Notes under the pieces: model-generated
Databases searched by the model: none
Told to the model about the DNA's origin: nothing
The model's input: only the letters and a program-made list of their open reading frames with translations
DNA from: Deroplatys truncata
Lineage: Eukaryota; Arthropoda; Insecta; Mantodea; Mantidae
Assembly: GCA_030765065.1 (NCBI GenBank)
Contig: CM060978.1
Span: forward strand, 112,821,692 to 112,885,691
Length of the DNA: 64,000 bases
Reading direction: 5' to 3'
Shown: positions 5,217 through 53,800 of the stretch, in pieces
How positions within the stretch are numbered: the stretch's first letter is position 1
How the letters are laid out: every line of letters starts with the position of its first letter
Program-made: the position numbers and the translations under genes

Positions 5217-6020
5217 TTCCAAAAACCATTTTTGGAAACATGTCCGTGTGTGTGTGTGTCTGTGTGTCTGTCTGTGAACAGCATAACTCAGAAACGAACA
5301 GTCGGATAAACATCAAACTTGGTATTTAGGTTCAGTATCTTCCAGAGATGCGACACGAAGGTTTTCAAGAAAATCCCCCACCCCAGATTACCCTTTACAT
5401 GGAACATTTTTCGAAAATTTTAATTTTCTCAAAAATGGCTCTAACGATTTTGATTAAAATATCACATGTTTAAGATATGTTCATGACAAATAAAATGTAT
5501 ATCTTGAATTTTCTGGGAATGTTTCCGAAAGTATTCTTCATTGTGAACGACTTTTGCATAACTGGTAAACCATAAGAGATAGGCAAACTTTTACTACACA
5601 CAAAATGTAGATAGCGTTAAAATACACAATTTATGTCATATACATTTTTTTTTGTTGAGTGAACCATTTCGAGATATTGCTTGTTATTCCCTTAAATTTT
5701 TCAATACTTATTTTCTCAAATGGGAATTCGTTATTCATTTTTTTATCTTGTATATGCAAAGAGTATTAACCTGTGGCAAAGGGAATGGTGCTGCACCTAG
5801 CAACCAGCTATTAAGAGATATGTATATGCTTAAAGCCTACTGTATTTCTATATTGCCCTTGTAAATATATATTCCCCTTACATCTACAAGCAAATTAGCA
5901 ATAAGATAGAGTCTGCAAATGTTTATCTCGATTAACATGAAGTAGATGGAGAATAAGCGTTTGTAAAAATAGTTTGTACAAGAGTAGAGAAAGTCATGTG
6001 AGTGTAACACATCAGATTTC
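5217..6020 (+). mobile_element. HINE-like repeat, copy 1 (5' truncated)
   Basis: Lacks the first 100 bp or so of the family. It starts within the block ATTTTTGGAAACATGTCC just before the GT microsatellite, and continues through the diagnostic blocks CAGCATAACTCAGAAACGAA, ACCAAACTTGGTATT and GATGCGACACGAAGG to the 3' end AACACATCAGATTT at about 6018. The 3' subterminal motif AGTAGAGAAAGT lies at about 5984-5995. The 5' loss coincides with the 3' loss of the neighbouring mariner, so one deletion could explain both. Confidence 0.85.
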
Positions 6021-6111
6021 TTTTGTTGAGTGAACCGTTTTCGAGATATTGCTTGTTATTCCCTTAAATTTTCCAATACTTATACTTTTTTTCAAATTCG
6101 TTATTCATTTT
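6021..6111 (+). mobile_element. HINE-like repeat, copy 2, first part (interrupted)
   Basis: Starts in mid-element at TTTTGTTGAGTGAACCGTTT and breaks at the T-run after TTATTCATTT. The same copy resumes at 7061 with ATGTCCTGGACATGCAAAGA; in an uninterrupted copy (9932-10780) these two segments are contiguous. The upstream half of this copy is missing because copy 1 sits at the other T-run. Confidence 0.85.
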
Positions 6112-7060
6112 TACTTTCTCTACTACGTATAGTAAGTAGGGGAAGTATTTTATTCCACCCAAAAATTCGATACCGAGATTTCACCGGAAATACATGTTTT
6201 GAGACCCCCTGAATCCAAAAAAAGCATTTTTGGAAACATGTCCCTGTGTGTGTGCGTGTGCCTATGCCTGTCTGTGTGTCTGCCTGTGTCCGAATCTGTC
6301 TGTCTGTGTGTCTGTGAACAGCATAACTCAGAAACGAACAGTCTGATAAACACCAAACTTGGTATTTAGGTTCAGTGTCTTCCAGAGATGCGACACGAAG
6401 GTTTTCAAGAAAATCCCCCCACCCAGATTACCCTTTACATGGAACATTTTTCGAAAATGTTAATTTTATCAAAAATGGCTCAAACGATTTTGATTAAAAT
6501 ATCATATGTTTAAGATATGTTCATGACAAATAAAATGTATATCTTGAATTTTCTGGGAATGTCTCCAAAAGTATTCTTCATTGTGAACGACTTTTGCATA
6601 ACTGGTAAACCATAAGAGATAGACAAAATTTTACTACACAAAAAAATGTAGATCGCGTTAAAATACACAATCTATGTCATATACATTGTTTTGTTGAGTG
6701 AACCATTTTCGAAATTTGCTTGTTATTCCCTTAAATTTTTCAATACTTATTTTCTCAAATGGGAATTCGTTATTCATTTTTTGTCTTGGATATGCAAAGA
6801 GTATTAATCTGTGGCAAAGGGAATGGTGCTGCACCTAGCAACAGCTATTAAGAGATATGTATGTGCTTAAAGGCTACTGTATTTCTATATTGCCCTTGTA
6901 AATATATATTCCCCTTACATCTACAAGAAAATTAGCAATAAGATAGAGTCTGCAAATGTTTATCTCGATTAACATGAAGTAGATGGAGAATAAGCATTTG
7001 TAAAAATAGTTTGTACAAGAGTAGAGAAAGTCATGTGAGTGTAACACATCAGATTTTTTT
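6112..7060 (+). mobile_element. HINE-like repeat, copy 3 (inserted in copy 2)
   Basis: Full length, about 945 bp, beginning at the 12-bp terminal motif ACTTTCTCTACT (6113-6124) and ending AACACATCAGATTTTTTT at 7060, with AGTAGAGAAAGT near 7020-7031 and the hairpin ATGTGAGTGTAACACAT just after it. It lies precisely within a T-run of copy 2, giving a clean empty-site comparison for both ends. The internal microsatellite is a mixed GT/CT stretch at 6245-6318. Confidence 0.9.
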
Positions 7061-7289
7061 ATGTCCTGGACATGCAAAGAGAATGGAATGCGCCACCTAG
7101 CAACCAGCGCTTAAAAGATTTGACTATCGCTTAAAACCTACCATATGCCCCTTGCATCTACAAGAAAATTAGCAATAAGATTGACATCTCGATATCTCGA
7201 TTAACATGAAGCATATGGCGAATAAGCGTTTGTAAAAATAGTTTGTACAAGAGTAGAGAAAGTCATATGAGTGTAACACATCAGATTTC
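7061..7289 (+). mobile_element. HINE-like repeat, copy 2, second part
   Basis: Continuation of the copy interrupted at 6111. It runs from ATGTCCTGGACATGCAAAGA to the family 3' end AACACATCAGATTT at 7289, including the subterminal AGTAGAGAAAGT at about 7253-7264 and a hairpin (ATATGAGTGTAACACAT) with one changed stem base. Confidence 0.85.
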
Positions 7290-8453: not shown

Positions 8454-8640
8454 AGGGAGAAATTACCTTGTAATTGACACGCACTCCTTTCAGACAGCAG
8501 CTGCTGGAAGGCTCGTCTCTAGCGGACCGATCGTTGCTTATCTGGGGGTTTGTCTTCCTAAATAGTTGGTCCTCGAGATAGCAAGCCATCCAGCAGATGA
8601 CTTAGAGGAGCGTGTGTCAATCACAAGGTAATTTCTCCCT
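8454..8640. mobile_element. 187-bp MITE with TA target duplication
   Basis: Terminal inverted repeats of 35 bp: the left arm starts AGGGAGAAATTACCTTGTAA (8454-8488) and pairs with 8606-8640 with three mismatches. A TA flanks each end (8452-8453 and 8641-8642). There is no coding capacity. The TA duplication suggests mobilisation by a Tc1/mariner-type transposase, but the ends do not match the Tc1 or mariner copies in this window. This is the only copy here. Confidence 0.85.
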
Positions 8641-8642
8641 TA

Positions 8643-9477: not shown

Positions 9478-9640
9478 TGAGTAACTCGGTGACTTCTAAA
9501 CTCTCTTAAGAAGGGTTCAAATTCCTTCGCCTGTAAAGAACGCTGTTAATCCTCCAGCCAGATGAGTAAACACCTGGGATGCTCCGGAAATTTTGTGGTT
9601 ATTTCTCACACGATAAGATAAAGCCTATACATTTTTATTG
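9478..9640 (+). repeat. Probable tRNA-derived SINE remnant
   Basis: A possible degraded A box (GTAACTCGGTGAC, near 9480) followed at a tRNA-like distance by a B box (GGGTTCAAATTCC, 9517-9529). The following 80 bp contain a block, ACACCTGGGATGCTCCGG, that faintly recalls the core of family B. The copy is old and its boundaries are not visible. Confidence 0.45.
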
Positions 9641-9931: not shown

Positions 9932-10780
9932 ACTTTCTCTACTACGTATAGTAAGTAGGGGAAGTATTGCATTCCACCCAAAAATTCGATACCGAGATTT
10001 CACCGGAAATACATGTTTTGAGACCTCCTGAATCCAAAAAAAGCATTTTTGGAAACATGTCCGTGTGTGTGTGTGTGTCTGTGAACAGCATAACTCAAAA
10101 ACTAACAGTCGGATAAACACCAAACTTGGTATTTAGGTTCAGTATCTTCCAGAGATGCGACACGAAGATTTTCAAGAAAATCCCCCCACCCCAGACTACC
10201 CTTTACATGGAACATTTTTCGGAAATTTTAATTTTCTCAAAAATGGCTCTAACGATTTTGATGAAAATATCATATGTTTAAGATAATGTCATGAGAAATG
10301 AAATGTATATCTCGAAATTTCTGGGAATGTCTCCAAAAGTATTCTTCATTGTGAACGACTTTTGCATTACTGGTAAACCATAAGAGATAGACAAAATTTT
10401 ACTACACAAAAAATGTAGATCGCGTTAAAATACACAACTTATATCATATACATTTTTTTTGTTGAGTGAACCGTTTTCGAGATATTGCTTGTTATTTCCT
10501 TAAATTTTCCAATACTTATACTTTTTCTCAAATTCGTTATTCATTTTTTTATGTCCTGGACATGCAAAGAGAATGGAATGCGCCACATAGCAACCAGCGA
10601 TAAAATATTTGACTATCGCTTAAAAGCTACCATATTCCCCTTGCATCTACAAGAAAATTACAAATAAGATTGACATCTCGATATCTCGATTAATATGAAG
10701 CATATGGAGAATAGGCGTTTGTAAAAATAGATTGTACAAGAGTAGAGAAAGTCATGTGAGTGTAACACATCAGATTTTTT
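9932..10780 (+). mobile_element. HINE-like repeat, full-length copy 4
   Basis: A good reference copy of about 849 bp, starting ACTTTCTCTACT (9932-9943) directly after a T-run and ending AACACATCAGATTTTTT. The GT microsatellite is at 10062-10080, the ACCAAACTTGGT near-palindrome near 10119, and the subterminal AGTAGAGAAAGT at 10741-10752. It belongs to the subtype whose 3' half carries ATGTCCTGGACATGCAAAGA, as does copy 2. No frame longer than about 110 codons, so non-autonomous. Confidence 0.92.
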
Positions 10781-12400
10781 ATTAAGCCTTTATTTTATTG
10801 TTTCCATTACATAAAGTTCAATGATAATGGGGAGGACTTCACAGATTATTCACAGACGTTTGAGATGCATATTTTACTTCCCCAATAATTCAAACATGAT
10901 AATTTAATCAAATTAGATTTTCTTTGTTAAAAAAATAATGAAAGTTTCAGTAAAGGATTGGAGTGGTGAGATTTATCATATATTTCGTTTTTGAGATAGA
11001 CAGGCGTATACTCAGACACCCGCGCGCGGGTAACCTTTTTTTCTAAGTACGCCTTTTCGAATTCAAGGGATCTCCAAACCAGTATTTCCGGTGAAATTTG
11101 TATTTCAAATTTTCGACCAAATGCAATACTTCCACTGCCTTAAGTAACTAAGCGGTAGAGAAAGCAAATAAGAACGCTTTAGTGTCATTGCTTTCAAACG
11201 AATATCATATTTTGTTTCCTTCGAAGCTGTTACTACATGTAGGTTGAGGTCTGATGCAAATTCTAATTGAGATAATAATTTTATGTGACGTAGGATGGGA
11301 CGACTCTCGCCAGCACCGTGGGCAGCCAGCGGTTTCCTTTTGAAATGAGTTCATGCACGTGAGTCAGGCGACTGTCTACATCAGTTAAGACCGGGGTTCG
11401 CATACCACCTAAGTGCACCGACCCTGTAATTGTGGTCCTAAACTTATATACAGCTTTGTTTCCTAACGATATAATGAGTTGTATATCTAATAACGTCTTA
11501 TACATATCGGTGCATCCTCTTGGCTATTAAGCTATCTCGCGTACAAGCAAGAAGAAATGCCTCACGCCAATTAGTATCAGAACAGATAGGAAAAGCAGGA
11601 AGGTGGTGACCGCAGAAGTTAGTGAACACTTTGGTGTTAACTAAACCACCGACCACGACAGAAACATCCGGAGACTATATGGGCTAAAAGTATTATAGTC
11701 ACACTTTCCTTTTTTCTTGTCATTTCACCGTCAACCGCCGTTTCGAAGGCGTAAGAAGACGATAAAATTAGGGTAAATTCTCATTTCAGAAAACTTACCC
11801 GCTCCAACCCTCAAAACGATAGGCGATGGGCATGTTACGCTTTTTCGTCATGGAGGAGGAAAATCCCGGATAACAAAGCCTATAATCGCTCCATTCTTAG
11901 AATTCAACTATGTAAACACATGACGTCATTAACTAGCCCGCGATACGCGGGAAACCAAAGCACACTATAACATATTATAGTACCTTAAATGTGCACGATT
12001 ACCTGCGGGTTTTCAAAATGTATGTTAATCATAGTTGGGAACTGTTGATTAACATGAAATTGTAAATAATATAAATAGTAAAACTACAGAAGGCAGTAGC
12101 TTCCGTTTAATTCTGTGTGGTGTCGTTCACCCCTCTTCTACATTCATATGATGGCTGTGCAATTTGTTCTTTACAGCTTATACGAACACGAGGATAACGC
12201 GGAGGGACACAAAATGTTTTGTTTACATCAATTCTGGTTTTAAGACTGGATCACTATATGCAGTACTATGACAGTGTAAGCAATTTGTTTACGACTTAGC
12301 AAATGAATCTGCTGTCCATAAGCATCTATAATTACCTGCATACAGTTTTTCTAGAAAACTCTCCCGTTCCAGAATCATACCATGGAAATGACAAGCGATG
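10781..12400. other. Mostly unassigned, one HINE-like fragment and one hairpin
   Basis: Besides the repeat fragment at 11057-11165, nothing identifiable. A 10-bp inverted repeat (ATGTTAATCA at 12022-12031, TGATTAACAT at 12046-12055, 14-nt loop) could form a hairpin of unknown meaning. The segment 11280-11950 is less AT-rich than its surroundings but has no recognisable coding content. Confidence 0.4.
11057..11165 (-). repeat. HINE-like repeat, 5'-end fragment
   Basis: Reads on the minus strand as the first 110 bp of the family: GCTTTCTCTACC, then GTGGAAGTATTGCATTTGGT, ATTTCACCGGAAATAC and TTTGGAGATCCCTTGAAT. The rest of the element is absent. More diverged than the copies at 5-10 kb. Confidence 0.8.
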
Positions 12401-12412
12401 GGCACTATGCTT

Positions 12413-12999: not shown

Positions 13000-13011
13000 G
13001 GCACTATGCTT

Positions 13012-13934: not shown

Positions 13935-14235
13935 GGAAAATAAAATCTGGTGTGTTACATTCACATAACTTTCTTCACCACTGCTCTTAGAAGGCTTGTT
14001 TTTTACCTGCTTCATAATCGAAATAAACATTTGCAGTGAGGTTTCATTACACATTTGGTTACAAGTGCAACAGGGATACAGGAAGCTGAAGCGATAGTCA
14101 AACTCTATAAAAAGTGGCGATATATTCTGGCTTTGAAATTCCATACTCTTTACATGATTATGAGAAACAAAGAAATGGCGAAGCACTTTAAAAAGGTATA
14201 AACTATTTAAAAATACTTGATAATAAAGGAGATAG
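13935..14235 (-). repeat. HINE-like repeat, diverged 3' half
   Basis: On the + strand it starts AAAATCTGGTGTGTTACATT (complement of the family 3' end) followed by CACATAACTTTCTTC. It continues through the complement of the ATGAAGTAG / TAAACATTTGCA region and CGATAGTCAAA to about 14235. It is clearly older than the copies at 5-10 kb. Confidence 0.7.
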
Positions 14236-19952: not shown

Positions 19953-20088
19953 GCTTTCTCTACCACGTACTACATAGTAGATAGAGAAGGAATTGTATTC
20001 CACCCAAAAATTCGATACCCAGATTTCACCGGAAATGCATTTTTGAGGCCCCTTGAATAAAATTTTTTTTTATAACAAGTCCATGGTG

Positions 20089-20138
<50 letters not shown>

Positions 20139-20822
20139 CGCGCGCGCGTGTCTGTCTGTGAACAGCATAACTAAAAACCTAAAAAAAAAAAAAAACCCGA
20201 TAAATACCAAACTTGGTATTAGATTCAGTATCTTCCAAAGATGCGACACGAAGATTTTTAGAAAATCCCCATACCCAAGACTACCCTTTACGTGGAAGAT
20301 TTTTCGAATTCTTTTATTTTCTAAAAAATGGCTCTAACGATTTTGGTTAAAATACCATATATTAAAGATACGAGTATTTACATTTACAAATGAAACGTAT
20401 ATCTTGAATTTTCTGGGAGTAACCTGTGAAGTTCACTTCATCTGGAACAAATTTTATATAATCTTATATAACGGCAAACTCTAAGCGATAGAAGAAAATG
20501 TACTACACAAAAAATGTAGATATGTTCGAATTGTTCATTTCTTGGTCATTCTCTTAAGTCCTGTCAACATTCACTTGTTTCTCGCGATTGTATGGAAACA
20601 GTATGGAATTTTAAGGCAGCGCATAGCATAGTTCTTAAACATTTGACTATCACTGTTCTGTTTGCATCTATAACGAAATGTGTAATGTAGCTATTTCTGC
20701 AAAGGTTTATTTGAATTAAAACGTAGTAGACAGAAAAATAAGATTTAGTAAGAATAGTTTGCATACCCACTAGTAAACGATAGAGAACAAGAAAGTCATG
20801 TGAATGCATCACATTAGATTTA
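19953..20822 (+). mobile_element. HINE-like repeat, diverged subtype with (CT)n
   Basis: Starts GCTTTCTCTACCACG (19953), shows CCACCCAAAAATTCGATACC and TTTCACCGGAAATGC, and ends AAGAAAGTCATGTGAATGCA / CATTAGATTT near 20820. In place of GT, the internal microsatellite is a (CT)n tract at 20092-20132 followed by GTGTGCGCGCG. A poly-A run lies at 20180-20195. Divergence from the 9932 copy suggests an older subfamily. Confidence 0.85.
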
Positions 20823-20854: not shown

Positions 20855-21763
20855 ACTTTTTGTACCACCTACAATACAATAGGGAAATATCGTGTTGGAT
20901 ATCGATATTTCACCGACAATACACGTTTTGAAATCTTCTGAATTAAAAAAGAAATGCTAGATAAAGGTCTCTCTCTGTGTATGTGATATAGAGAGAGAAA
21001 GAGTGAGAGAATGTGTACAGCATAAGTTAAACACAATAAATTGGATTAAATAGCAAGCCTGGTATTAAGTTCAGCATATTCCAATGTAGCGACACAAAAA
21101 TTTTCAAGAATTTCCGCACATTCTGAACTATCCTTTACATGGAAAAAAGTTCACTCATTTTTTATTTTTCTAAAATAACCTGTGTCTGTGGAGTTCTCTT
21201 TATTTGAATGATTTTTGTATAATTTTATATAACAAGGAAGCCTTAAAAGGTAGACAAAAGCTAATACATGAAAACCGAAGAGCTCATTAACATAACAATT
21301 GGTCTCAAATTCTTTCTACCGTTAACAGTTTTTTAAATATTCCATATTATAAACACCGGTTACCACCAATTAACATGTAATGATGTTTTCATACGTTAAA
21401 ACCTTCTTGCTTTATTTGAAACAATTCCTAGGTGAACATTTATTGCAACATGGATAGAAACATAACTTTTTATATGAATAGTACAATATACAATGAATAT
21501 CTGCGATTTCATCATTGGTAGAGAAAACTGTGTGAACGTACGCATTCATAAGATTGTTTGAAGTAGTAGGTATCAGCTTGTTTCTCGCGATATAATACAA
21601 AGGGCATGGAATTTAAAAGGTTTTGACTATCGCTGCAGCTTCCTGTGTGCCCCTTGTGTTTACAACCAACGAAATAAATTTCTGCATAATTTATGTTAAA
21701 ATACTTTAATAAGAATAGTTATGGAAGAAATATAAAAGACAGTCAATGTAACATATCAGAATA
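20855..21763 (+). mobile_element. HINE-like repeat, strongly diverged copy
   Basis: Begins ACTTTTTGTACCACCTACAA and follows the family block order with many changes: TATTTCACCGACAATACACG, a CT/GA-rich simple tract at 20968-21015, CAGCATAAGTTAAACAC, and GGTATTAAGTTCAGCATATT. The 3' end is AGTCAATGTAACATATCAGA at about 21760. Probably among the oldest copies in the window. Confidence 0.75.
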
Positions 21764-23771: not shown

Positions 23772-24143
23772 AAAAAATCTGATGTGTTACACTCACATGA
23801 CTTTCTCTACTCTTGTACAAACTATTTTTACAAACGCTTATTCTCCTTCTACTTCATGTTAATCGAGATAAACATTTGCAGAGTCTATCTTATTGCTAAT
23901 TTTCTTGTAGATGTAAGGGGAATATATATTTACAAGGACAATATAGAAATACAGTAGCCTTTAAGCATATACATATCTCTAATAGCTGGTTGCTAAGTGC
24001 AGCACCATTCCCTTTGGGACAGATTAATACTCTTTGCATATCCAAGACAAAAAAATGAATAACGAATTCCCATTTGAAAAAATAAGTATTGAAAAATTTA
24101 AGAGAATAACAAGCAATATCTCGAAAATGGTTCACTCAACAAC
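23772..24143 (-). mobile_element. HINE-like repeat, outer copy, 3' part
   Basis: Reads on the minus strand from TTGTTGAGTGAACCATTTTC to the family 3' end at 23772. It is the continuation of the segment at 25045-25575. The break corresponds to the T-run after GTCATATACATTTTT in uninterrupted copies such as 25971-26886. Confidence 0.88.
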
Positions 24144-25044
24144 AAAAATCTGATGTGTTACACTCACATGACTTTCTCTACTCTTGTACAATCTATTTTT
24201 ACAAACGCCCATTCTTCATATGCTTCATATTAATCGAGATATCGAGATCTCAATCTTATTTGTAATTTTCTTGTAGATGCAAGGGGAATATGGTAGCTTT
24301 TAAGCGATAGTCAAATATTTTATCGCTGGTTGCTATGTGGCGCATTCCATTCTCTTTGCATGTCCAGGACATAAAAAAATGAATAACGAATTTGAGAAAA
24401 AGTATAAGTATTGGAAAATTTAAGGAAATAACAAGCAATATCTCGAAAACGGTTCACTCAACAAAAAAAATGTATATGATATAAGTTGTGTATTTTAACG
24501 CGATCTACATTTTTTGTGTAGTAAAATTTTGTCTATCTCTTATGGTTTACCAGTTATGCCAAAGTCGTTCATAATGAAGAATACTTTTGGAGACATTCCC
24601 AGAAATTTCGAGATATACATTTCATTTCTCATGACATTATCTTAAACATATGATATTTTCATCAAAATCGTTAGAGCCATTTTTGAGAAAATTAAAATTT
24701 TCGAAAAATGTTCCATGTAAAGGGTAGTCTGGGGTGGGGGGATTTTCTTGAAAATCTTCGTGTCGCATCTCTGGAAGATACTGAACGTAAATACCAAGTT
24801 TGGTGTTTATCCGACTGTTAGTTTTTGAGTTATGCTGTTCACAGACACACACACAGACACACACACAGACACACACACACAGACACACACACACACAGAC
24901 ACACACACGGACATGTTTCCAAAAATGCTTTTTTTGGATTCAGGAGGTCTCAAAACATGTATTTCCGGTGAAATCTCGGTATCGAATTTTTGGGTGGAAT
25001 GCAATACTTCCCCTACTTACTATACGTAGTAGAGAAAGTAAAAA
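24144..25044 (-). mobile_element. HINE-like repeat, inner copy (nested)
   Basis: Complete copy of about 900 bp, minus strand, from AGTAGAGAAAGT (25028-25039, complement of the 5' terminal motif) to AAAAATCTGATGTGTTACAC at 24144. Its insertion into the A/T-run of the outer copy fixes both ends: nothing but A/T homopolymer separates the termini from the outer copy. The long imperfect CA/ACAG tract is at 24840-24908. It belongs to the same subtype as 9932-10780. Confidence 0.92.
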
Positions 25045-25575
25045 TGTATATGACATAAATTGTGTATTTTAACGCGATGTACATTTTTTTGTGTAGAAAA
25101 ATTTTGTCTACCTCTTATGGTTTACCAGTTATGCAAAAGTCGTTCACAATGAACACTTTTGGAGACATTCCCAGAAAATTCAACATATACATTGTATTTG
25201 TCATGAAAATATCTTAAACATATGATATTTTAATCAAAATCGTTAGAGCCGTTTTTGAGAAAATTAAAATTTACGAAAAATCTTCCATGTAAAGGGTATC
25301 CTGGGGTGAGGGATTTTCTTGAAAACCTTCGTGTCGCATCCCTGGAAGATAATGAACCTAAATACCAAGTTTGGTGTTTATCCGACTGTTCGTTTCTGAA
25401 TTATGCTGTTCACACACACACGCACACACACACATACACACGGACATGTTTCCAAAAATGCTTTTTTTTTTCAGGGGGTCTCAAAACATGTATTTCCGGT
25501 GAAATCTCGGTATCAAATTTTTGGGTGGAATACAATACTTCCCCTACTTACTATACGTAGTAGAGAAAGTAAAAA
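25045..25575 (-). mobile_element. HINE-like repeat, outer copy, 5' part
   Basis: Minus-strand 5' part with AGTAGAGAAAGT at 25559-25570 as terminal motif and a short CA-type tract at 25410-25442. Joined to 23772-24143 it would give one full-length copy without loss. Confidence 0.9.
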
Positions 25576-25970: not shown

Positions 25971-26098
25971 ACTCTCTCTACTACGTATAGTAAGTAGGGG
26001 AAGTATTGTATTCCACCCAAAAATTCGATACCGAGATTTCACCGGAAATATATGTTTTCAGACCCCCTGAATCCAAAAAAAGCATTTTTGGAAACATG

Positions 26099-26140
<42 letters not shown>

Positions 26141-26886
26141 TGTGAACAGCATAACTCAGAACGGAACAGTCGGATAAACACCAAACTTGGTATTTAGGTT
26201 CAGTATCTTCCAGGGATGCGACACGAAGGTTTTCAAGAAAATCCCCCACCCCAGGATACCCTTTACATGGAAGATTTTTCATAAATTTTAATTTTCTCCA
26301 AAACGGCTCTAACGATTTTGATTAAAATATCATATGTTTAAGATATTTTCATGACAAATACAATGTATATGTTGAATTTTCTGGGAATGTCTCCAAAAGT
26401 GTTCATTGTGAACGACTTTTGCATTACTGGTAAACCATAAGAGGTAGACAAAATTTTTCTATACAAAAAATGTACATCGCGTTAAAATACACAATTTATG
26501 TTATATACATTTTTTTTGTTGAGTGAACCATTTTCGAGATATTGCTTGTTATTCTCTTAAATTTTTCAATACTTATTTTCTCAAATGGGAATTCGTTATT
26601 CATTTTTTTGTCTTGGATATGCAAAGAGTATTAATCTGTGGCAAAGGGAATGGTGCTGTACCTAGCAACCAGCTATTAAGAGATATGTATGAACTTAAAG
26701 GCTACTGTATTTCTATATTGTCCTTGTAAATATATATTCCCCTTACATCCACAAGAAAATTAGCAATAAGATAGAGTCTGCAAATGTTTATCTCGATTAA
26801 CATGAAGTAGATGGAGAATAAGCGTTTGTAAAAATAGTTTGTACAAGAGTAGAGAAAGTCATGTGAGTGTAACACATCAGATTTTT
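25971..26886 (+). mobile_element. HINE-like repeat, full-length reference copy
   Basis: About 916 bp from ACTCTCTCTACTACG to ACACATCAGATTTTTT. It contains a pure (GT)n tract at 26101-26139 and the uninterrupted joint GTTATATACATTTTTTTTGT that serves as the empty site for the nested copies at 24144 and 5217. It abuts the 3' tail of a family B SINE, without intervening sequence. Confidence 0.93.
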
Positions 26887-29845: not shown

Positions 29846-30029
29846 TTTTTCCATAGTCACGGACTACCATTATTTACTTGGTAGCTTTAAAAGCAAAAAA
29901 TGACCATAACTTTAATCACTAGCATTTATTAGCATTTACAAGTATGCGAAAACATACTTGTTTAATTTAAAACAAAATTAATTTAAAATATGTGAACTTG
30001 CCTCCAGAATGTAAATTTGAAATAAGAGT

Positions 30030-30245
30030 TTGGAGGAAGTGTTCCATCTGCCCTCGATTACGACAACTCGGAATTACAATACCTGTATCACGGACCCGCC
30101 GGCAAACGGCAACAAAGTGTCTACACTTGGTACGTACGATCCTGTTAGGAAATCTTTCAGCATAGAGCCGTTGAACAGATCGAGAATTGTACTGCGTTTC
30201 TCCGTAAATTAAGATCGTGTCCAGATATTCGGGCGTTGAAAATCG
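30030..30245 (-). pseudogene. DUF4817-like helix-turn-helix fragment
   Basis: Within a 120-codon minus-strand frame, residues around YLDTILIYGETQYNSRSVQR and LYAERFPNRIVRTKCRHF, then RRVRDTGIV, follow the pattern of the DUF4817 domain that occurs at the N-terminus of insect transposon-derived proteins (IYG.. N...A.R.Y..RFP.R..P....F......LR.TG). That domain is a predicted DNA-binding module. No downstream DDE domain is seen, so this is an isolated fragment. Assignment is from memory of the domain pattern. Confidence 0.6.
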
Positions 30246-30688
30246 CGGCATTCTGTATGCTGCTTTGATCTTAACTTGTGACATTGGCCCCACCCCCCAA
30301 AAAATGCATGCGATTAAGTAGATAAACATTCCCCACGAGCTACACCGATATCGGAAGAAAGTAAGCGCAGCTGATGTGATGCTACCAGTTCTAACAGAAC
30401 TAAGGAGGCAACAAATTATGGACTTTTTAAATTTAATTTACACAAAAAACCTTTCATTCTACTGAAATTCGTCAAAAGAAAAGGTTATTGTTTATTCCAT
30501 TTTCTGTGAATATAGTCATAAATTAAGAACCTTTAATTAACAATAATCCAGCAAGGCGATGATAAATTTTGGATAAACGTATTCTTTCTAAGAAAACGGT
30601 GAATTTAATTACAAGTATCAGAAACCCCTGCTCATCTACATCCTCTCACCCACCTCCCCCAGTCCGCAGGATCATTTCATTTTCACCC

Positions 30689-31284
30689 TGTATAGTAAGT
30701 AGGGAAAGTATTGCATTCCACTAAAAAATTCGATAACGAGATTTCAACGGAAATACATGTTTTGAGGTGCCTTGAATCCAAATAAAGCATTTTTGGAAAC
30801 ATGTACGTGTGCGTGTCTGTCGTCTGTGAACACCATAACTCAAAAAAGAAAAGTCGGATAAATTCCAAACTTGGTATTTGAGTTTAGTATCATCCAAGGG
30901 TGCGACACGAAGATTTTCAGAGAATCCCACCACCCCAGGCTACCCTTTACATGGAACACTTTTCAAAAATGGCTCTAACTATTTTGATTAAAATAGCATA
31001 TGTTTAAAGTATTTCAATGACAAATGAAATATATATCTTGAATTGTCTGGGGAAGTCCCCAAAAGTCCTCTTCATTCTGAATGAATTTTGCATAACTGGT
31101 AAACCGGAAGAGATAGACAAAATTTTACTATACAAAAAAATGTAGATTTCCTTAAAACACCAGTTTATGTCATGTACAATTTTTTTTTTTTTTGGTCAAG
31201 TGAACAATTTCCGAGATGTTCCTTGTTATTTGTTCGAATTTTCCAATGCTTATACTTTTTGTTAAATGGGAATTCGTTATTAGG
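30689..31284 (+). mobile_element. HINE-like repeat, 3' truncated
   Basis: Starts at TATAGTAAGTAGGGAAAGTA (the first 15 bp are lost) and ends near CAAATGGGAATTCGTTATT-like sequence at 31284, so the 3' third is missing. The GT tract has shrunk to GTGTGCGTGTCTG. A 14-bp T-run at 31179-31192 marks the preferred insertion point but is empty. Confidence 0.82.
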
Positions 31285-31293: not shown

Positions 31294-32133
31294 ACTTTGT
31301 CTACTACGTAAAGTAAGTAGGGGAAGTGTTGCATTTCACCCAAAAAATAATACGAGATTTTACCGGAAATATATGTTTTGAGGCCCCCAGAATTAAAAAA
31401 AACGCTTTTAGAAAAAGGTCCGTGTGGTCTGTGAGCAGCAAACTCAAAAATTAAACGTCGGATAAATACCAAACTTGATATTTAGGTTCAGTATCTTTCA
31501 AAAATGACACGAAGGTTTTCGAGAAAATCCCTTCACTCCAGACATGGAACATTTTTCGAAAATTTTGCTTTTCTCAAAAATGGCTTTAACGATTTTGATT
31601 AAAATATCATATATTTAAGATATTTTCATGACAAATGAAATGCATATCCTGAATTTTTTGGGAATGTCCCCAAAAGTCCTCTTCTTTCTGAATGGATTTT
31701 GCACTGATAAACCGTAAGAGATAGACAAAAGTTTTCTCCACAAAAAATGTATAGCTCGTTAAAACACACATTTTATGTCATATACATATCTTTTGTAGAG
31801 TGAACCATTACCGAGATATTTCATGTTATTTATTTGAATTTTCCAATACTTATATTTTTTCTCAAATGGGAATTCGTTATTCGTTTTTGTCTTTTTTATG
31901 TCCTGGACATGCAAAGAGAATGGAATGCTCCACATAGTAGCCAGCTCTTAAAAGATATGACTATCGCTTAAAGTCTACCATATTCCCCTTGCACCTACAA
32001 GAAAATTAACAATAAGATAGGGTCTGCAAATGTTTATCTCAATTAACATGAAGTAGATGGAGAATAAGCGTTTGTAAAAATAGTTTGCACAAGAGTAGAA
32101 AAGGTTATGTGAGTGCAACACATCAGAGTTTTT
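31294..32133 (+). mobile_element. HINE-like repeat, near full length
   Basis: From ACTTTGTCTACTACG (31294) to CAACACATCAGAGTTTTT. The microsatellite is almost gone: CCGTGTGGTCTGTGAGCAGC at 31420. The 3' half belongs to the ATGTCCTGGACATGCAAAGA subtype. It is directly followed by a family D SINE remnant. Confidence 0.85.
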
Positions 32134-32891: not shown

Positions 32892-33540
32892 TAAAATTGA
32901 TGCATCAAACTCTCATAACTTTATCTACTCTTACAACCTTATATAATCTCTTATACATTATAGCATTCATACAAAAAGTAATTCTTCTGTTCACGTTATG
33001 TTACAATAAATTTTCAACTAGAAATATCAAATTAAGCAATATGAACTTGGTTGTATGTATGATACGGAAATCAAAACAACTGTTCACTTATCATAGTTCA
33101 ATGTTTTTTTTTACGGAAATTTCGAAAACAGCTAATATCACAAAATGTTATTCGACATATATCGTATAATTCAACGAGCTATATATTTTTCGTAAAGCAA
33201 GATTTTATCTATCTTTTATGATTTGTCACTTACACAAAATTATACAAAATTCATTCAAAATGTACAGTTATTCAGAGAAATTTCAAGATATACCTTCCAT
33301 TATAATGCAAACCAAAGTATTGTATTTTAATCAAAATTGTTAGAACCGATTTTGAGAAAATGAAAAATAACCAAACATTTTCCATGGGTAGTTGTTTGGT
33401 GGGTAGGGTAGGGTAGTTTGGTGTGGGGGAGGCGAGAGATTTTCTTGAAAAAGTTCTCTTAGCATCCATAAACAGTGTCTGATTTAAATATGAACTTTGG
33501 CATTTATCCGACTTTTCGTTTATAAGTAATGTTTCTTTAT

Positions 33541-33586
<46 letters not shown>

Positions 33587-33712
33587 TACGCACGGAGCTT
33601 TTTCTAAATGATTTTGGGTACAGTGGACCTCAAAACGCGTATTTCCGCTGAAGTTTCTATACAGAATTTTTCGGTGGAATTCAATGCTTCCTCTACTTAA
33701 CTGTAGAGGAGT
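32892..33712 (-). mobile_element. HINE-like repeat, diverged, minus strand
   Basis: Reads on the minus strand from CCTCTACAGTTAAGTAGAGG (a 20-bp near-palindromic start at 33691-33710) through GGAAGCATTGAATTCCACCG, the simple tract at 33541-33590 and TTTTGATTAAAATACAATAC. The 3' end is AAAGTTATGAGAGTTTGATG near 32895. The microsatellite is compound, (CT)n next to (CA)n. Confidence 0.8.
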
Positions 33713-37649: not shown

Positions 37650-37842
37650 CTCTCGTAGTACATAGTAGGTAGAGAAGGTATTGCATTCCACCCAAAATTT
37701 CGATACCGGGATTTCACCGGAAATACATGTTTTGAAGCCACCTATAAAAACATTTTTTAGAAAAAGGTATGTGCATTGTCTATGTTTGCCTGTGGACAGC
37801 ATAACTCAAAAACGAAAAGTCGGATAAATATCAAACTTGGTA
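37650..37842 (+). mobile_element. HINE-like repeat, 5' part, interrupted by mariner
   Basis: Begins CCTCCTCTCGTAGTACATAG and reaches ATCAAACTTGG, at which point the mariner starts at a TA. Continues at 39103 with TATAAGTTCAGTATTTTTCA. The microsatellite is reduced to a few GT. Confidence 0.88.
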
Positions 37843-39102
37843 CGAGGCGTGTGTTTAAAATAAGTATCGTTTTAATATTTTGCCGCCGCAGTTTGAGCAC
37901 GCGCGATCACTTTCTCCATTCATTAGGAAGCCAGACGCAGCAGCTGTAAGCAATCGTTTTTTCTTTTTGTTTGTTTGTTTTGTTTTTGTTTTCCTGTTGT
38001 TAGAACGTTTCGAAATGTTCAAAACATCGAACGAACCGTCGACTGTGAAGCCAGATCAGTGATTCGTGTTTTGAATGCGAGAAATGTTACGCCAGCAAAC
38101 ATTCATCGCCAACTGTGTGAGGTTTATGGGGAAACAATAATGAGTGATGGAATGGTGAGGAAGTGGTTAGACAATTTAACGAAGATCGTGAAAATGTGCA
38201 CGAACCGCGGAGCGGCCGTCCGTCTGTGATCACGAATGAGTTGAAGAAAACATTCGTGAGGATAGACATTTCACCATATCGGTGTTGTCTTCGCATTTTC
38301 CACAAATTTCAAATTGCAACATTGTGACTGAATGCTTAGAATTTCGGAAATTGTGCCTAAGGTGGTTGTCCAAAAATCTTACTGATGAGCACAAGAACAA
38401 GCGATCAGCCGCTTCACTAACTTTTCTCACGCGATATGCTGAGGAAGGCGATGAGACATGGGTGTCTAACATCACTCCTGAATCAAAGCAACAATCCATG
38501 GAGTGTAGGCACAGAACATCCTCCGTGAAGAAGAACAAATTAAAGCAGACGATATCCACTCGCAAGATCATGTGCACGGTTTTCTGGGACAGATATGGTG
38601 TTTTGCTGGTTGAATTCTTGCCCAGGAATACAACGATCAACAAAGACGTCTATTGTGAGACACAACGAAAGCTCCGTCGTGCAACATAGAACAAAGGGGG
38701 TGGAATGTTTTGCGTGGAATCCTTTTGGTTCATGACAATGCCCGGCCACACATAGCCAAACAAACGCAGGATCTGATCGCAACATTTGGTTGGGTATAAT
38801 TCGACCACCCTACCTACAGTCTGGATTTGGCACCAAGCGATTTTCATCTGTTTCTTCTTCTGAAGAAATTCCTTGGTGGAAAACATTTCAACGACGATAA
38901 TGTGAAACAAGAGGTGGCTTTCGTCACAGGCGGCATCATTCTTTGACAAGGGCATACAAAAACTGGTTTCCCGTTACAAGTGCCTGAATAACGGCGGTGA
39001 CTATGTGGAGAAGTAGTGTAAGGTTGATAATAAAACATTTGAAAAATAATGTTCTGATATTTTTAAAAAAATTATCGGTACGTGTTTTAAAAACACGCTT
39101 CG
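37843..39102 (+). mobile_element. mariner transposon nested in HINE-like copy
   Basis: 1260 bp between TA dinucleotides (37841-37842 and 39103-39104). Inverted ends: CGAGGCGTGTGTTTAAAATA and the inverse of GTTTTAAAAACACGCTTCG. Transposase remnants run in order: RSVIRVLNARNVTPANIHRQ and LCEVYGETIMSDGMVRKWL (38060-38170), SSHFPQIS (38286), a 136-codon frame with GDETWVSNITPESKQQSMEC (first Asp), KQTISTRKIMCTVFWDRYGV and LLVEFLPR (38452-38640), LLVHDNARPHIA (second Asp, near 38727), HPTYSLDLAPSDFHLF (third Asp, near 38806), and GIQKLVSRYKCLNNGGDYVE at the C-terminus (38950-39015). All three catalytic Asp are kept, but the gene is broken by several frameshifts and stops. Confidence 0.93.
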
Positions 39103-39712
39103 TATATAAGTTCAGTATTTTTCAAAGATGCGACACCAAGCCTTTACTGGAGCATTTCGAATTTTTTTATATTCTAAAAAAATGGCTCTAATGATTTTGA
39201 TTAAAATACTTATATTAAAGATATTTACATGACAAATAAAATGTGTTTCTATAATTTTCTAGGAGTAGCCTGTGAAGCCCTCTTCATTCCGAAGGAATTT
39301 TGTATAATCCTGTATAGGCGGTAAACTTAAGCGATAAACGAAAACGCACTACACAAAAAAATGTAGATCTCTTAAAAACACACAATTTATTTCAAATAAC
39401 TTTTTTTTTTGTGGCATCAACAATTTCCCATGTATCCGTTATTAATGGTTCGAATTGCTCAACACATCCATTCTTTTAAAGTCCTATCGACATTCGGTTG
39501 TTTCTTGCGGTTGCATGGAAAGAGAATGGAATTTTAAGGCCAGTATGTAGCGTCCAGTTCTTAAACATTTGATTATTGCTATTCCCTTTGCATTTATAGC
39601 GAAATGTGTAATGTTCTCTTCTGCAAAGATTTGTCTCGATTAAAATGAAGTAGGTAGAAAAATAAGCTTTTATAAGAATCGCTTTTATACCCATTAATAA
39701 ATTATGGAGATT
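39103..39712 (+). mobile_element. HINE-like repeat, 3' part after mariner
   Basis: Resumes exactly where 37842 stopped and shows TCAAAGATGCGACACCAAGC, TGATTTTGATTAAAATACTT and AAAAAATGTAGATCTCTTAA. The final 30 bp (terminal motif and hairpin) are not recognisable: the copy runs into an oppositely oriented one at 39713. Confidence 0.82.
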
Positions 39713-40530
39713 GGTGGGTGTGCAAACTATTCTTACTAAAGCTTATTTGTCTATCTACTATATTTAATCCAAATAAACCGTTGCAAAAATAGATACATTA
39801 CACATTTCGTTATAAACACAAAGAGAACAGCGTTAGTCAAATGCTTAAGAACTGGACGCTATATGCTGGCCTTAAAATTCCATACTGTTTCCATGCAATC
39901 GCGAAATACAACTGAAAATCGGTGGGACTTTTAAAATTGACAAGTATTGAACAATTCGAATCTTTAATAATGGATATCTCAGAAACGGTTTATGCCACAA
40001 AAAAACTTCATTCTAGTAAATTGTGTGTTTTAAAGAGATGTACATTTCTTGTGTGGTTCGTGTTCTCTATCGTTTAACGTTTACAAGTTACACAAGGTTA
40101 TACAAAACTCCTTTCTAATGAAGAGGACTTCCTAGGCTGTTCCCAGAAAATTCAAGATATACATTTCATTTATCATGTACATATCTTTCATATATGGCGT
40201 TTTAATCAAAATCGTTACAGCCATTTTTTAGAAAATAAACATTTTTCGAAAAATGTTCCATGTAAAGGGTAGTTGGGGGAGGTGGAAAAATCTTCGTGTC
40301 GCATCCTTAGAAGATACTGAATTCAAATACCAAGTTTGGTGTTTTTCCGCCTTTTCGTTTTTGAGTTATACTGTTCTCAGGCAGACACACACATACACGC
40401 GGACATGTTTCCAAAAATGCTTTATTTGGACTCAGGCCACCTCAGAACATGTATTTCCGGTGACAACTCGATATCGAATTTTTGGGTGAAATACAATGCT
40501 TCCACTACTTACTATACGTAGTAGAGAAAT
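39713..40530 (-). mobile_element. HINE-like repeat, minus strand, tail-to-tail with previous
   Basis: The 5' terminal motif is at 40520-40529 (complement GTAGTAGAGAAA). Reading down: GGAAGCATTGTATTTCACCC, the short CA tract at 40383-40397, ACCAAACTTGG, and TTAAAACACACAATTTACTA. The 3' end is missing, like that of its neighbour, so both copies were probably trimmed at the junction. Confidence 0.85.
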
Positions 40531-42029: not shown

Positions 42030-42043
42030 TATAATTATTATTA

Positions 42044-42074
<31 letters not shown>

Positions 42075-42291: not shown

Positions 42292-42299
42292 ATTATATT

Positions 42300-44411: not shown

Positions 44412-45300
44412 TCATATATTACTTTATATAACACCTACCTATAGTAGGGAGAGGAGATATTATGTTCCAACCAAAAATTTTATATCAAAGTTTCAATAAA
44501 AAACACATGTTTAATGAATAAAAAAAAGGCATTTTTAGAAAAAGGCCTGTCTGTCTTTGTGTGCATATCTATGAACAGCATAACTCAAAAACAAAATTTG
44601 GATAAATAGCAAACTTGGTATTTAAGTTCAGCATCTTCCAGGGATTCCCCACCCCATCACAAAGTATCCTTTACATGCACTACTTTTTGTTATTTTTTAT
44701 TTCCTAAAATATGGCTGCAATGATTTTGATTAAAATACAATATGTTTAACATATTTATATGACAAATAACTTTTATATCTTGAAATTTCTGCGCATAGCC
44801 TGTGAACTCCTCTTTATTCTGAATGAATTTTGGAGGGAAAAAAACACAAAAAGCTTTGTATAAATTGTAAAACATAAGAGATAGATAAAACCTTAATACA
44901 TAAAAGATGTATGTATACCTCATTAAAAAAACACAGCTGTATGTCTAATACATCTTTTTGTGGCTCTAACAATTTCCAAGATATGCATTGTTATTGGTTT
45001 GAATTTTCAAATACTTTATACTTTTTAAAGTGCTAAAGTCATAATTTATTTCTTCCTCATGGTCATGCAAAGAGTACAGAATATAATTAACTGCTTTTTA
45101 AAAATTTGACTATCACTTCAGCATCCTCTATCCTCTTGTACCTATAACAAAATGTGTAACAAAATAATTTCTGCCAATGTTTATCACAATTAACATGAAG
45201 TATACAGAAAAATAAGCTTTTATAAGAACAGTTTGCAGAAACTGTATTAAAATAAATAATATAGGCTGGAGTGTTACAAATGTAACACAACAGATTTTTT
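44412..45300 (+). mobile_element. HINE-like repeat, diverged
   Basis: Block order preserved with many changes: CTATAGTAGGGAGAGGAGAT, CCAACCAAAAATTTTATATC, AGGCATTTTTAGAAAAAGGC, ACAGCATAACTCAAAAACAA, AGCAAACTTGGTATTTAAGT. It ends GTTACAAATGTAACACAACA / GATTTTTTT at 45298, where the hairpin stem is extended (TGTTACAAATGTAACA). Lies upstream of the rost exons. Confidence 0.82.
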
Positions 45301-46286: not shown

Positions 46287-46300
46287 ACTCACCACCTTCT

Positions 46301-49400: not shown

Positions 49401-50807
49401 TAATTGAAATTTGTCTTAAAGGTGCATCACCCTCCTTTCAGAAACCCTCTGCACACATATGTATATGTACAGATATATGTATTAACCTTCAATCACAGTG
49501 AATCCCAGAGCCACTTCTGAGGAATGTTATATTGTCTTGATGATAGTAAAGCAATGAAAGGAGTTGCATGATATGATGGGTACACACTAAAGCACATTGG
49601 AACAAAAACACTGGCAATGTACCCCACCCATTTCATTTGTGCCTAATTAAATTTTAATTAGGGGTGAACAACAGTGTTAATTATAATATGAGTGTTCTGG
49701 TATGGAGCCGTTATACTGTAGCTATGATACCAATCCACACATAAATGGAATAGCTGGTGCATTGTGCAATGTAAACATAGAGGTAAGGGGAGAGTTGTCA
49801 GGGGGGAAATGAGGTATTTCCAGACTCACTTTCAAGGAATATGCCCCATAAATTTTGATATGTGTACTTCCTACAATAACATTTTACTGTTTTGTTTTTA
49901 CTTTTTCCAGTGGCAAACTAAGTCAAGTGTTCACCTAGCATATTTAATTTATCGTTGGTTCCTAGCCGCCCTGTTCTTGGCAACAATGCTATTTTCCATC
50001 TGTGATCCAGGGCGAAAAAACAAACATTCAGGAATGAGATACATAAGCAAGTGGCCCATATATCTCACCAACTGGGGCTACACGATGTGCACTGTGCAAG
50101 CTGTACTTGGAGCAATACTTGTGGGCAGGAGGTTCATCGAGGAGAGAAGAAAAGGTAACAGAAATACCCCTCAAATACTAGTCATGTTAGTTAATAACAT
50201 TCATCACTGTGTTTAAATAATGCAAAATCTTTAATGAGGGAACTCCACAATATAATTATGTCTATGATACATGTGTTATAATACTTTTTTGGAAATAGGC
50301 AATTGTGACTTAAACATTGTACATTATACATCATAATGGCAGAGTGGAATTACTGCCATCAAATCAATTAGGAAAGGCTCTAGTTGTAGTACATAAACAT
50401 GGAATATATGAATACTGTCATAGCAAAACTGGCCAACTCCATTACAGACAATTTTGAGAAAAATGCAAATAATCTACTGCGCCTGTCTCCTTTCAGATTT
50501 CAATTTGCTGCTTTTGTTAAGGAGATGATGTTTATGTAGCAGTAATAGCAAGATTAGGACAAAAATCATCATTTGTAGTAATTTCCGAGAAATCCAATAA
50601 AGCTGTTTGGAATTGGGCTGTTTTGCTGTGACATGTACAGAGTTCGCCGGTTTTGCTGTGACCTATATTCTATTATTACTTTCTCTACTACATATAGTAA
50701 GTAGGGGAAGTATTGTATTCCACCCAAAAATTCGTTACCGAGATTTCACCGGAAATATATGTTTTGAGACCCCCTGAATCCAAAAATAGCATTTTTGAAA
50801 ACATGTC

Positions 50808-50873
<66 letters not shown>

Positions 50874-53800
50874 TGTGAACAGCATAACTCAGAAACGAAC
50901 AGTCGGATAAACACCAAAATTGGTATTTACGTTCAGTATCTTCCAGAGATGCGACACGAAGGTTTTCAAGAAAATCTCCCCACCCCAGACTACCCTTTAC
51001 ATGGAACATTTTTCGAAAATTTTAATTTTCTCAAAAATGGCTCTAACGATTTTGATTAAAATATCATATGTTTAAGATACTTTCATGACAAATAAAATGT
51101 ATATCTTGAATTTTCTGGGAATGTCTCCAAAAGTATTCTTCATTGTGAACGACTTTTGCATAACTGGTAAACCATAAGAGATAGACAAACTTTTACTACA
51201 CAAAAAATGTAGATCGCGTTAAAATACACAATTTATGTCATATACATTTTTTTTGTTGAGTGAACCATTTTCGAGATATTGTTTGTTATTCCCTTAAATT
51301 TTTCAATACTTATTTTCTCAAATGGGAATTCGTTATTCATTTTTTTGTCTTGGATATGCAAAGAGTATTAATCTGTGGCAAAGAGAATGATGCTGCACCT
51401 AGCAACCAGCTATTAAGATATATGTCGATGCTTAAAGGCTACTGTATTTCTATATTGCCCTTGCAAATACAAAACAAGGAGAACTTAGTAGGCCTTAGGC
51501 CATAGTCAAATATTTTTAGAATTGGTCACTATGTTTAAAATGTAATTCTCTTTGCATGTCAAAAGATCGTTTCTGAAAATGTTTATCTTGATTAATATGA
51601 AATAGATGGAGAATAAGAGTTAGTAAAAATAGTTTGTACAAGAGTAGGGAAAATAATGTGAGTGTAACACATCAGATTTTTTTTATACTGTGTATAGTAA
51701 GTTGGGGAAATATTGTATGTCACCCAAAAATTCAATGTGCAGATTTCACAGGAAATATATGTTTTGAGGTCCCCTGAATCCAAAAAAAGTATTTTTAGAA
51801 ACAGGTTCATAATTTCAGTATCCTCCAAATATGTTATTTTCAAAATTAGATATAAATTGTCAAAAACAATCCCCCCACTGCAAACTACCCTTTATGTGGA
51901 ACAATTTTTGAAATTTTTTATTTTCTAAAAGCTGGCTGTAACAATTTTGATTAAAATAACACATATTAAAGATATTTACATGACAAATAAAATGTATGTC
52001 ATTAATTTTCTGGGAAAGTCTGTGCAGTCCTCTTCATTTGGAAGGAACTTTGTGTAATCTTGTATAACTGATAAACGTTAAGCGATAGATGAAAACATAC
52101 TATACAAAAATGTAGATCTCTTTAAAATGCACAATTTATTTAAAATAAATGTTTTGTGGTATAAGCCACTTCTCAAATATACATTATTAATTGTTCGAAT
52201 TGTTCAATACTTTATCATTCTTTTCAAGTCCTGTCAATTTTCAGTTGTTTCTCATGATTTCAGGAAAGGGTATGAAATTATAAGGCCAGCATATAGCTTC
52301 CAGTTCTAAAACATTTGACTATTGTTGTTTTCTTTGAATCTTGATGAAATGTTTAATAGCTGTTTAGCTATTTCTGCACAGATTTATCTGGAATAAAATG
52401 AAGTAAATAGAAAAATATGCTTTAGTAAAAGTAGTTTGTACTCACTAATAAACAATAGCAAGTAGAGAGAGTCATGTGAATGCAACACATACAATTTTTT
52501 TCTACAAAATACAACGCAGCTGCAGGAACGTTAATTTTAAGAGCAATTATGTAATAAATCACCGTGGAGTGTAAATTATATAAGTTATGACACTACAATA
52601 GATTCAGTTTTACCATACCTTCACACATTAAGGCCCTGTTGCATCACACTGTACATAGAGTCATGACGTGCCCATATGTTCATTCTGATCACTATCACCA
52701 TCATCTTCAAAGTCCTTCAATGCATCTACATAAGAGTAACCCTTCTGTAGATTGCCATTCATTTCCAAAGTGAATCTTCAGCAGCTTTTCAACATCTGCC
52801 AGTTTCTTGTTATTGACATGAACTCCTACAGATACAATGTCTGGCTGAAAAGTCCTGCTTGTTTTCAAAATGGGAATATTTCTAATATCTACAATAAAAT
52901 GTAGCTCTTCAAGAACATTAATCTGCTTCTACTCGTTCTGATGGCTATTTTTCGTTTTACTTTAGATATCTGGAAGTGAAGCCAAATGGAGATGGCTGAG
53001 CATTTCATAAAAAAACAAGGTAATTAGCCAGTTTTGATGAAAAACAGAAATATCTAGAAGTTGGCGGCTTTTGCTATGACACATATGTTAGAGTTGGCTT
53101 GTTTTGGTATTACAACCATTTCCAAGATCGAATTACTATGGAATATGAGCAAGTTTTTCAAAACCTCATATCACCCAATGATAGAGTGTCCCATATATTG
53201 TAATATTGAACTCTTACTATAAAATTTTTCAATTGGCCAGTTATGCCATGACACTACTCATATCTTTTAAACTGCTTAGAATTACTCATCTAGTAAACGA
53301 GTTTCATTTAAGTACAGTTGAAAGAGCTATAATGAGCAAAAACAGTAGAGATAAGTGTGACAGTAAGTGGTGGCATAGATGTTCTCTCATTAGACACTGT
53401 TTCTACACTGCACAGTGTCATCCACTCTACGTTGCACAATGATAGCCTTGTGAGGGATACGGATTAACACAAAAGAAAATGTAATTTTCATCCTAGAGAA
53501 AATAACCTGAAACAAATTATGAAAGATTTCAGTTGTCTTCATTATTTGTCTGTAATGTACACAGAGAGGTTCCAAGTTCATTTTTTGCACATGACTTCCT
53601 TAATAAGATCTTACAATACACAGAGTGAATAGAAAGTTTTGAAGTATTGCTCATAATATATCACTTAATATTTTTCACATACTTCTGATGATTTGTATCC
53701 TCCAATACACAGGGGCAATGAAAAACACGGTTTTCCCAAATGGCAACATAACTTACCTTTGCATCTTTAAACTTTTCTCTCAGTTCTGCATGTGATAGAT

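Follow-up and report, generated by a model that had tools for sequence, protein, structure and literature searches.

The abundant non-coding repeats of a Deroplatys truncata genome region share both ends with a Rep-Helicase Helentron of the same genome

We found that the repeat family dominating a 64-kb stretch of the Deroplatys truncata genome (contig CM060978.1, positions 112,821,692 to 112,885,691; hereafter the window) is non-coding, has the end structure of non-autonomous Helentrons (HINEs), and has its 5′ region and 3′ terminus in common with a 10.4-kb element that encodes a Rep-Helicase (RepHel) and endonuclease protein. An earlier reading of the window from its letters alone (the original prediction) had interpreted the repeats in this way, and the existence of a RepHel-endonuclease element sharing both ends supports it. 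It is very likely that the repeats are HINEs moved in trans by a Helentron of the same genome.

The consensus of the HINE is 856 bp long and was built from 29 full-length copies. The profile and the divergence table used 26 of these, leaving out a second array unit, the second copy of a duplicated block and one 1,466-bp copy; the copy counts do not include L001-L008, which are near-identical units of a single tandem array. The 12-bp motif ACTTTCTCTACT, which had been placed at the very 5′ end, forms this end behind a T-run, and its inverted copy AGTAGAGAAAGT, expected inside the 3′ end, lies at consensus positions 822-833 (12 of 12 bases), 23 bases before the end. The consensus closes with CAGAT, followed by a T-run. 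Canonical Helitrons carry 5′-TC and CTRR-3′ at their ends; the ends found here, (TTTTT)ACTTTC and CAGAT, are not of this type, and we rejected that assignment. The proposed 3′ hairpin ATGTG-AGTGTAA-CACAT was matched 12 times in the window at up to three mismatches (0.27 expected). Its folding energy was unremarkable (z -0.34; 78 of 200 shuffles folded as well). In 95 fetched 3′ ends the rate of change per site was lower in the stem (0.040) than in the loop (0.074), all five stem pairs were kept in 77, and no compensatory stem pairs were seen. In addition, the 5′ subterminal inverted repeat (subTIR) pairs with a nearby inner AGTAGGGGAAGT, with two mismatched positions in ACTTTCTCTACT..AGTAGGGGAAGT, and this structure folded with a z of -1.92 (14 of 200 shuffles folded as well). 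The internal microsatellite anticipated near the 5′ end is a TG block at about 130-165 of the consensus, as judged by eye, and the lack of coding capacity was borne out by a longest stop-free stretch of 79 codons. The consensus also contains an internal T-run at about 624-631 (CATTTTTTTATGTCC). The best-conserved bins (0.98) included 1-25 and 826-850, and the inner bin 201-225 was equally high. Divergence of the 26 copies from the consensus ranged between 2.5 and 14.5%, and was at most 4.3% in 14 of them.

A profile search of the genome with Helitron_like_N (PF14214), in which 150 of 291 first-look candidates were scored, reported 152 matches; the same profile had no match in any of 14 control genomes. 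Among the matches listed, at least 18 lay in open frames that were 2,100 aa or longer. The copy at C9:66062627-66073039 (10,413 bp) has an unbroken frame of 2,303 aa with a herpes-tegument-type domain (Herpes_teg_N) at 46-191, followed by 21-aa repeats and DUF6570, and with Helitron_like_N at 938-1129 (1.2e-27) and PIF1 at 1593-1815 (1.8e-28). The Helentron protein carries the motifs HEH, YxxKYxxK, Walker A, DE, GDFN and SDH, and a search of solved structures matched the helicase part of the C9 protein to the Helraiser structure (7lcc). Two further copies were collinear with C9: the C13 copy over a stretch that starts in the 5′ region and enters the frame (98.8% over 3.5 kb) and the C8 copy, which one HINE interrupts (94.7% over 1.4 kb and 98.5% over 2.4 kb). 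A Helentron 3′ end of identical type was present in all 12 of the 3′ regions compared and in two of two more. The last 390 bp of 12 Helentron copies differed pairwise by 0 to 2.1%, and because the median was only 0.5% and at least 18 long open frames stood among the matches listed, the Helentron system looks to have been recently active. The 21-aa (63-bp) tandem repeats within the Helentron frame lie at L029:1540-2358, and a differing number of these units would explain the open-frame lengths of 2,324, 2,345 and 2,408 aa. A second, better-scoring group of Rep matches (about 1e-54 to 1e-30), mostly interrupted by stops (e.g., C1:38116489), possibly represents a different Helitron lineage.

A Rep-Helicase element with matching ends in the same genome, the check proposed with the original prediction, was found in the C9 Helentron. 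On its 5′ side two units stand in tandem, one matching HINE 1-628 at 96.3% and the other HINE 1-655 at 93.5%, and its 3′ terminus matches HINE 823-856 (34 bp) at 94.1%. The subTIRs of HINE and Helentron agree at 12 of 12 bases on the 5′ side and at 11 of 12 consecutive bases on the 3′ side. According to PMC4067079, one Helentron family is defined by at least 11 bp of identical subTIR and a subfamily by 80% identity over the last 60 bp; HINE and Helentron fall into one family by the first of these rules. The shared ends also bear on the idea that the repeats are short interspersed nuclear elements or truncated long interspersed nuclear elements, whose other strand ends in an A-run and sits in A-runs. 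On the reverse strand an A-run does stand at both borders; however, both ends are sharp and conserved, and since they are those of the RepHel element, we regard this explanation as refuted, with no search aimed at variable-length target duplications, and its probability as negligible.

Several observations weigh against the view that a Helentron of the same genome moves the HINEs. The 3′ subTIRs of the two elements are off by one base, and their last 60 bp are only 65% identical (ungapped). As this is below the 80% of the subfamily rule, the closest partner of the HINE may be another Helentron, unseen or lost. The endonuclease domain (Exo_endo_phos_2) was absent from the whole-protein scan and barely passed the cut-off when the C-terminal 252 aa were searched alone (E 2e-6; 28.1 bits vs 27.4), and a comparison of this C-terminal part with solved structures gave nothing relevant (one hit, E 0.44). 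The five-base gain seen at many empty sites looks like a 5-bp duplication, and transposition itself was not observed. The RepHel link nevertheless holds whether or not the duplication is real, and a C9-type Helentron most likely drives the HINEs.

The family is abundant in both the window and the genome. In the window, ACTTTCTCTACT was found 17 times at up to one mismatch (12 exact; 0.34 expected), a number that none of 100 shuffles reached. Family DNA amounted to 13,639 bp (21.3%) in 27 profile matches, which take in older diverged relatives and lie on both strands; this fits the predicted presence of at least 18 copies on both strands. Both ends were recognised in five + strand copies and one - strand copy, and the remaining copies were nested, truncated or diverged. 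Genome-wide (4.29 Gb, 818 contigs), exact ACTTTCTCTACT occurred 537,760 times (267,484 + 270,276), compared with 2,012 (1,038 + 974) for the reversed-letter control. The exact 48-bp 5′ end had 49,511 copies and a 28-bp 5′ end preceded at -6 by a base other than T had 102,341, with reversed controls of 0 in both cases, and the exact 34-bp 5′ end gave no match in viral contigs. The exact 12-mer is found once per 5.3 kb in the window and once per 8.0 kb in the genome. Scaling the 21.3% by these densities gives the family a share of about 14% of the genome, a crude estimate from one window.

The original prediction also held that the elements insert into T-runs without an obvious target duplication. 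The T-run part stood: TTTTT was found on the left of 50 of 70 distinct 5′ ends and on the right of 50 of 65 distinct 3′ ends. The other part is less certain. When filled sites were compared with empty ones, taking ACTTT...CAGA as the element and the net bases over the empty site as the gain, five bases, nearly always T, were gained at 8 of 13 empty sites (Table 1); the 13 do not include comparisons with an element's own tandem neighbour (L031, L073, two in L009, L023 and window 50678). The five-base gain is usual, not constant. We also examined 48 flank pairs with distinct flanks of at least 30 bases (L060 and L076, of 20 loci, gave no pair). Here 0-1 T stood on one side in 5 copies, and in 40 there were no more Ts on the left than on the right, an outcome that all the models permit equally. 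We also listed 100 copies whose base at -6 is not T; they are the first such places along one contig and include some duplicates. Of these, 88 had exactly T5 before the element as tallied by eye, and the base preceding T5 was A in 66 of the 88, more than the 55.8% before the T-runs of the window, an excess that is indicative only.

This pattern would be expected of a Helentron whose endonuclease, unlike that of published Helentrons, makes a staggered 5-bp cut and so a true TTTTT duplication. The gain of five was usual at empty sites whose target run was 5 to 8 T long, and, as most insertions begin at the T-run's left edge, the number of Ts to the left would be held at five. In 14 of 14 young Helentron copies CAGA was followed by at least five T, which would equally fit T5 carried at the 3′ end. 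However, the left pentamer was TTATT at 8 of 70 distinct 5′ ends, and in the six of these that were read at the right end (window 50678, L064, L070, L072, L058 and L059) the right pentamer was not TTATT. Some HINEs had right runs of fewer than five T (e.g., L066 and L077), the composite L058/L080 gained T5 plus an extra ATT, and gains of 6, 8 or more were seen at some sites. We found no sublineage signal common to the TTATT copies (best p 0.01 over several hundred columns). Staggered cutting by a Helentron is unlikely as the explanation. Because the flanks are asymmetric, Ts borne by the element are likelier than a target duplication: T5 probably belongs to the 5′ end of the element, which would be joined to the left edge of the T-run with no duplication. 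A true duplication of T5 is unlikely, and the rest of the probability falls to T5 carried at the 3′ end.

The same counts, five bases gained at 8 of the 13 sites and exactly T5 before 88 of 100 listed copies, could be read as the TTTTT target duplication of a miniature inverted-repeat transposable element, or another cut-and-paste element, with short terminal inverted repeats. However, the inverted repeats are asymmetric, the 5′ one terminal and the 3′ one internal, and the left and right pentamers were unequal in L012, L059, L064, L066, L070, L072 and L077. As a RepHel element with the same ends is present, this class is mostly refuted, and we rejected it as highly improbable.

HINEs and Helentrons have inserted in each other's T-runs and formed composites with serial 3′ ends. 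A 5′ end was contained in 15 of 16 Helentron 5′ regions (all except L054); L051, and perhaps others of the 15, represents the inner junction between two tandem 5′ units. In 9 of the 15 regions, at least one of them such an inner junction, the 5′ end found stood directly behind a HINE 5′ half, at the run at consensus 624-631. The sequence of Helentron 3′ end, T-run and HINE 3′ module was seen in 4 of 12 3′ regions (L034, L036, L040 and L041) and in one of two more (L080). Moreover, the C9 and C13 copies start with a HINE half and stop at the Helentron's own 3′ end, and their flanks are different. By rule, an extra 3′ module lay behind the first 3′ end in 7 of the 36 HINEs whose left flank was not itself HINE; L014 was an eighth HINE with a serial 3′ module by eye, and L025 had four 3′ ends in succession. 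Composites of this kind are expected if rolling-circle termination is leaky, and for Helraiser an intact 3′ end was bypassed in about 11.7% of events (PMC4778049). In the simplest reading, for which the composites give fair support, mobilisation of nested elements began at an upstream 5′ end and stopped at one or another of several 3′ ends. Against this, the serial 3′ ends could have been inherited by many copies from a few composites or one lineage, without repeated read-through.

HINEs were also met in satellite DNA. A tandem array near the start of C1 (C1:20511-119361; L001-L008 and L028) has a unit of about 3.41 kb, and the units looked at held one HINE each in the identical place, a HINE trapped in a satellite and multiplied along with it. 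At L018 (C1:6288500-6298400), a 92/276-bp satellite with an inserted HINE fills the 9.9-kb locus, and it served as an empty-site comparison.

We suggest that the HUH/Y2 Rep domain would nick at the 5′ end and the PIF1-type helicase would peel off a single strand, which would be replicated; the 3′ hairpin and subTIR would act as the termination signal, and the strand would be attached to the left edge of a T-run. If the 3′ signal were leaky, elements nested in T-runs would be carried along, which may have produced the composites with serial 3′ ends. A wider proposal can be made tentatively, as possible rather than favoured. In it, insertion is not modification-free, either because a staggered endonuclease cut duplicates TTTTT or because the element carries a fixed five-T tail and is attached to the left edge of the T-run; HINEs and Helentrons, since they themselves contain T-runs, serve as mutual landing pads; and leaky 3′ termination turns composites into new mobile units with interchangeable ends. 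If true, this would be a self-amplifying, modular route of genome growth. With a HINE and an autonomous partner in one genome, the system could be tested in cells, and the large copy number offers statistical power on the fate of the target site and the frequency of 3′ read-through.

The family copies of the window and the gains at empty sites are listed in Table 1. Two + strand frames at window 49728-50216 and 63321-63803 match Rolling stone (Pfam Rost) and are exon-like; the element at 50678-51677 and its neighbour sit between them. Remnants at window 2082-3220, 17457-18155, 29967-30437 and 38240-38689 correspond to a Tc1-type transposase, a reverse transcriptase, DUF4817 and a mariner-type transposase, respectively; the HTH_38 match at 2082-2510 scores below the cut-off. 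The DUF4817 frame is likewise exon-like and of a kind typical of insects, and with the two Rolling stone matches it makes an insect the most likely source.

Table 1. Family copies in the window and net gains of bases at empty sites.
Feature	Position or site	Strand	Evidence
HINE copy, 5′-truncated (consensus 102-857)	5218..6017	+	profile match
Outer HINE middle (consensus 534-629), host of 6113-7054 at T-run	6016..6111	+	profile match, empty-site comparison
Full-length HINE, nested within another HINE	6113..7054	+	both ends, profile match
Outer HINE 3′ module (consensus 625-857)	7053..7286	+	profile match
Full-length HINE, young, 2.7% from consensus	9932..10775	+	both ends, profile match, divergence table
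HINE 5′ fragment	10971..11164	-	profile match
HINE 3′ fragment, weak match	13946..14214	-	profile match
Diverged full-length relative	19954..20818	+	profile match
Diverged relative, two pieces (20855-21176, 21192-21350)	20855..21350	+	profile match
HINE 3′ part (consensus 534-856), copy interrupted by 24148..25039	23778..24149	-	profile match, nested-insertion comparison
Full-length HINE, inserted at T-run near consensus 539 of another copy	24148..25039	-	both ends, profile match, nested-insertion comparison
Outer copy 5′ part (consensus 1-539)	25040..25570	-	profile match
Full-length HINE	25971..26882	+	both ends, profile match
HINE 5′ part (consensus 10-625)	30685..31283	+	profile match
Full-length HINE, older, 14.5% from consensus, directly behind 30685..31283	31294..32127	+	both ends, profile match, divergence table
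Diverged HINE fragment	33119..33704	-	profile match
Diverged HINE 5′ fragment	37660..37842	+	profile match
Diverged HINE fragment	39093..39684	+	profile match
Diverged near-full-length relative	39719..40529	-	profile match
Diverged near-full-length relative	44435..45239	+	profile match
Full-length HINE, long TG block, two profile pieces	50678..51677	+	both ends, profile match
HINE fragment within 50678..51677 on opposite strand, weak match	51460..51562	-	profile match
Older relative (51681-51808, 51812-52490), diverged 3′ hairpin end	51681..52490	+	profile match
Gain of five	window 6113		empty-site comparison
Gain of five	L018		91/92 alignments
Gain of five	L028		one alignment
Gain of five	HINE in L033		vs two Helentron copies without the HINE; 17 alignments to more distant HINE sequence: 10
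Gain of five	L078		75/78 alignments
Gain of five	window 24148-25039		63/76 alignments; extra bases include GTT
Gain of five	Helentrons C4:69M and C8		by eye; empty run from HINE consensus
Other gain	L017		five vs closest satellite unit; overall 86 alignments six, 74 five
Other gain: six (C5:94.8M), eight (C1:33M)	C5:94.8M and C1:33M		by eye
Other gain: five T plus ATT	C3:172M
Other gain: six to ten	L025

HINEs, Helentron partners, Helentrons with a tegument-type deubiquitinase and Helitron-rich insect genomes are known in kind. As far as our searches go, what is new here is the family with its scale and with an unbroken Helentron as its direct partner, together with composites that carry serial 3′ ends and a gain that is usually five bases. 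The family is unnamed as far as the literature search goes, in which the 12-mer turned up in four papers, none of them on transposons by title and start of abstract. The elements resemble the HINE/DINE-1-like elements described in PMC4067079 in their subterminal inverted repeats (12-15 bp there), 3′ stem-loop, T-rich target and non-coding nature, in an inverted repeat with its 5′ side nested in the 5′ subTIR, in a microsatellite present in some copies, and in a partner with RepHel plus endonuclease. They differ in that the 3′ subTIR lies about 23 bases from the terminus, compared with 38-60 in the mite HINEs of that paper, in the usual five-base gain, whereas no target modification is reported there, and in the serial 3′ modules, a contrast drawn from descriptions, not letters.

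The Helentron itself is like the VTD deubiquitinase Helentrons of PMC9741609, which combine RepHel, a C-terminal AP endonuclease and a herpes-tegument-type domain; what sets it apart from them is that 21-aa tandem repeats follow the protease-like domain and that it is paired with a HINE. The Pacific oyster likewise has many HINEs (Cg_HINE, PMC7492417) with a TT target, no target duplication reported and a link between HINEs and tandem repeats; an autonomous partner was not assignable in the oyster, whereas one was found here. Large insect genomes with many Helitrons are also known from grasshoppers (PMC7754599 and PMC7486953, cited jointly), in which Helitrons make up 7-20% of the repeatome in gomphocerine species, while for morabine species the figures are 10-15% (assemblies) and 23-29% (reads); these are totals over many families and gave no family-level link to the present element. 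Helraiser (PMC4778049) differs in being a Helitron for which only N-terminal, nuclease and helicase domains are named, and in that its read-through was measured in an assay, whereas here read-through is suggested by the serial 3′ ends. At the same time, it offers a parallel to the composites, in that its 3′ hairpin terminator can be bypassed, giving new 3′ ends.

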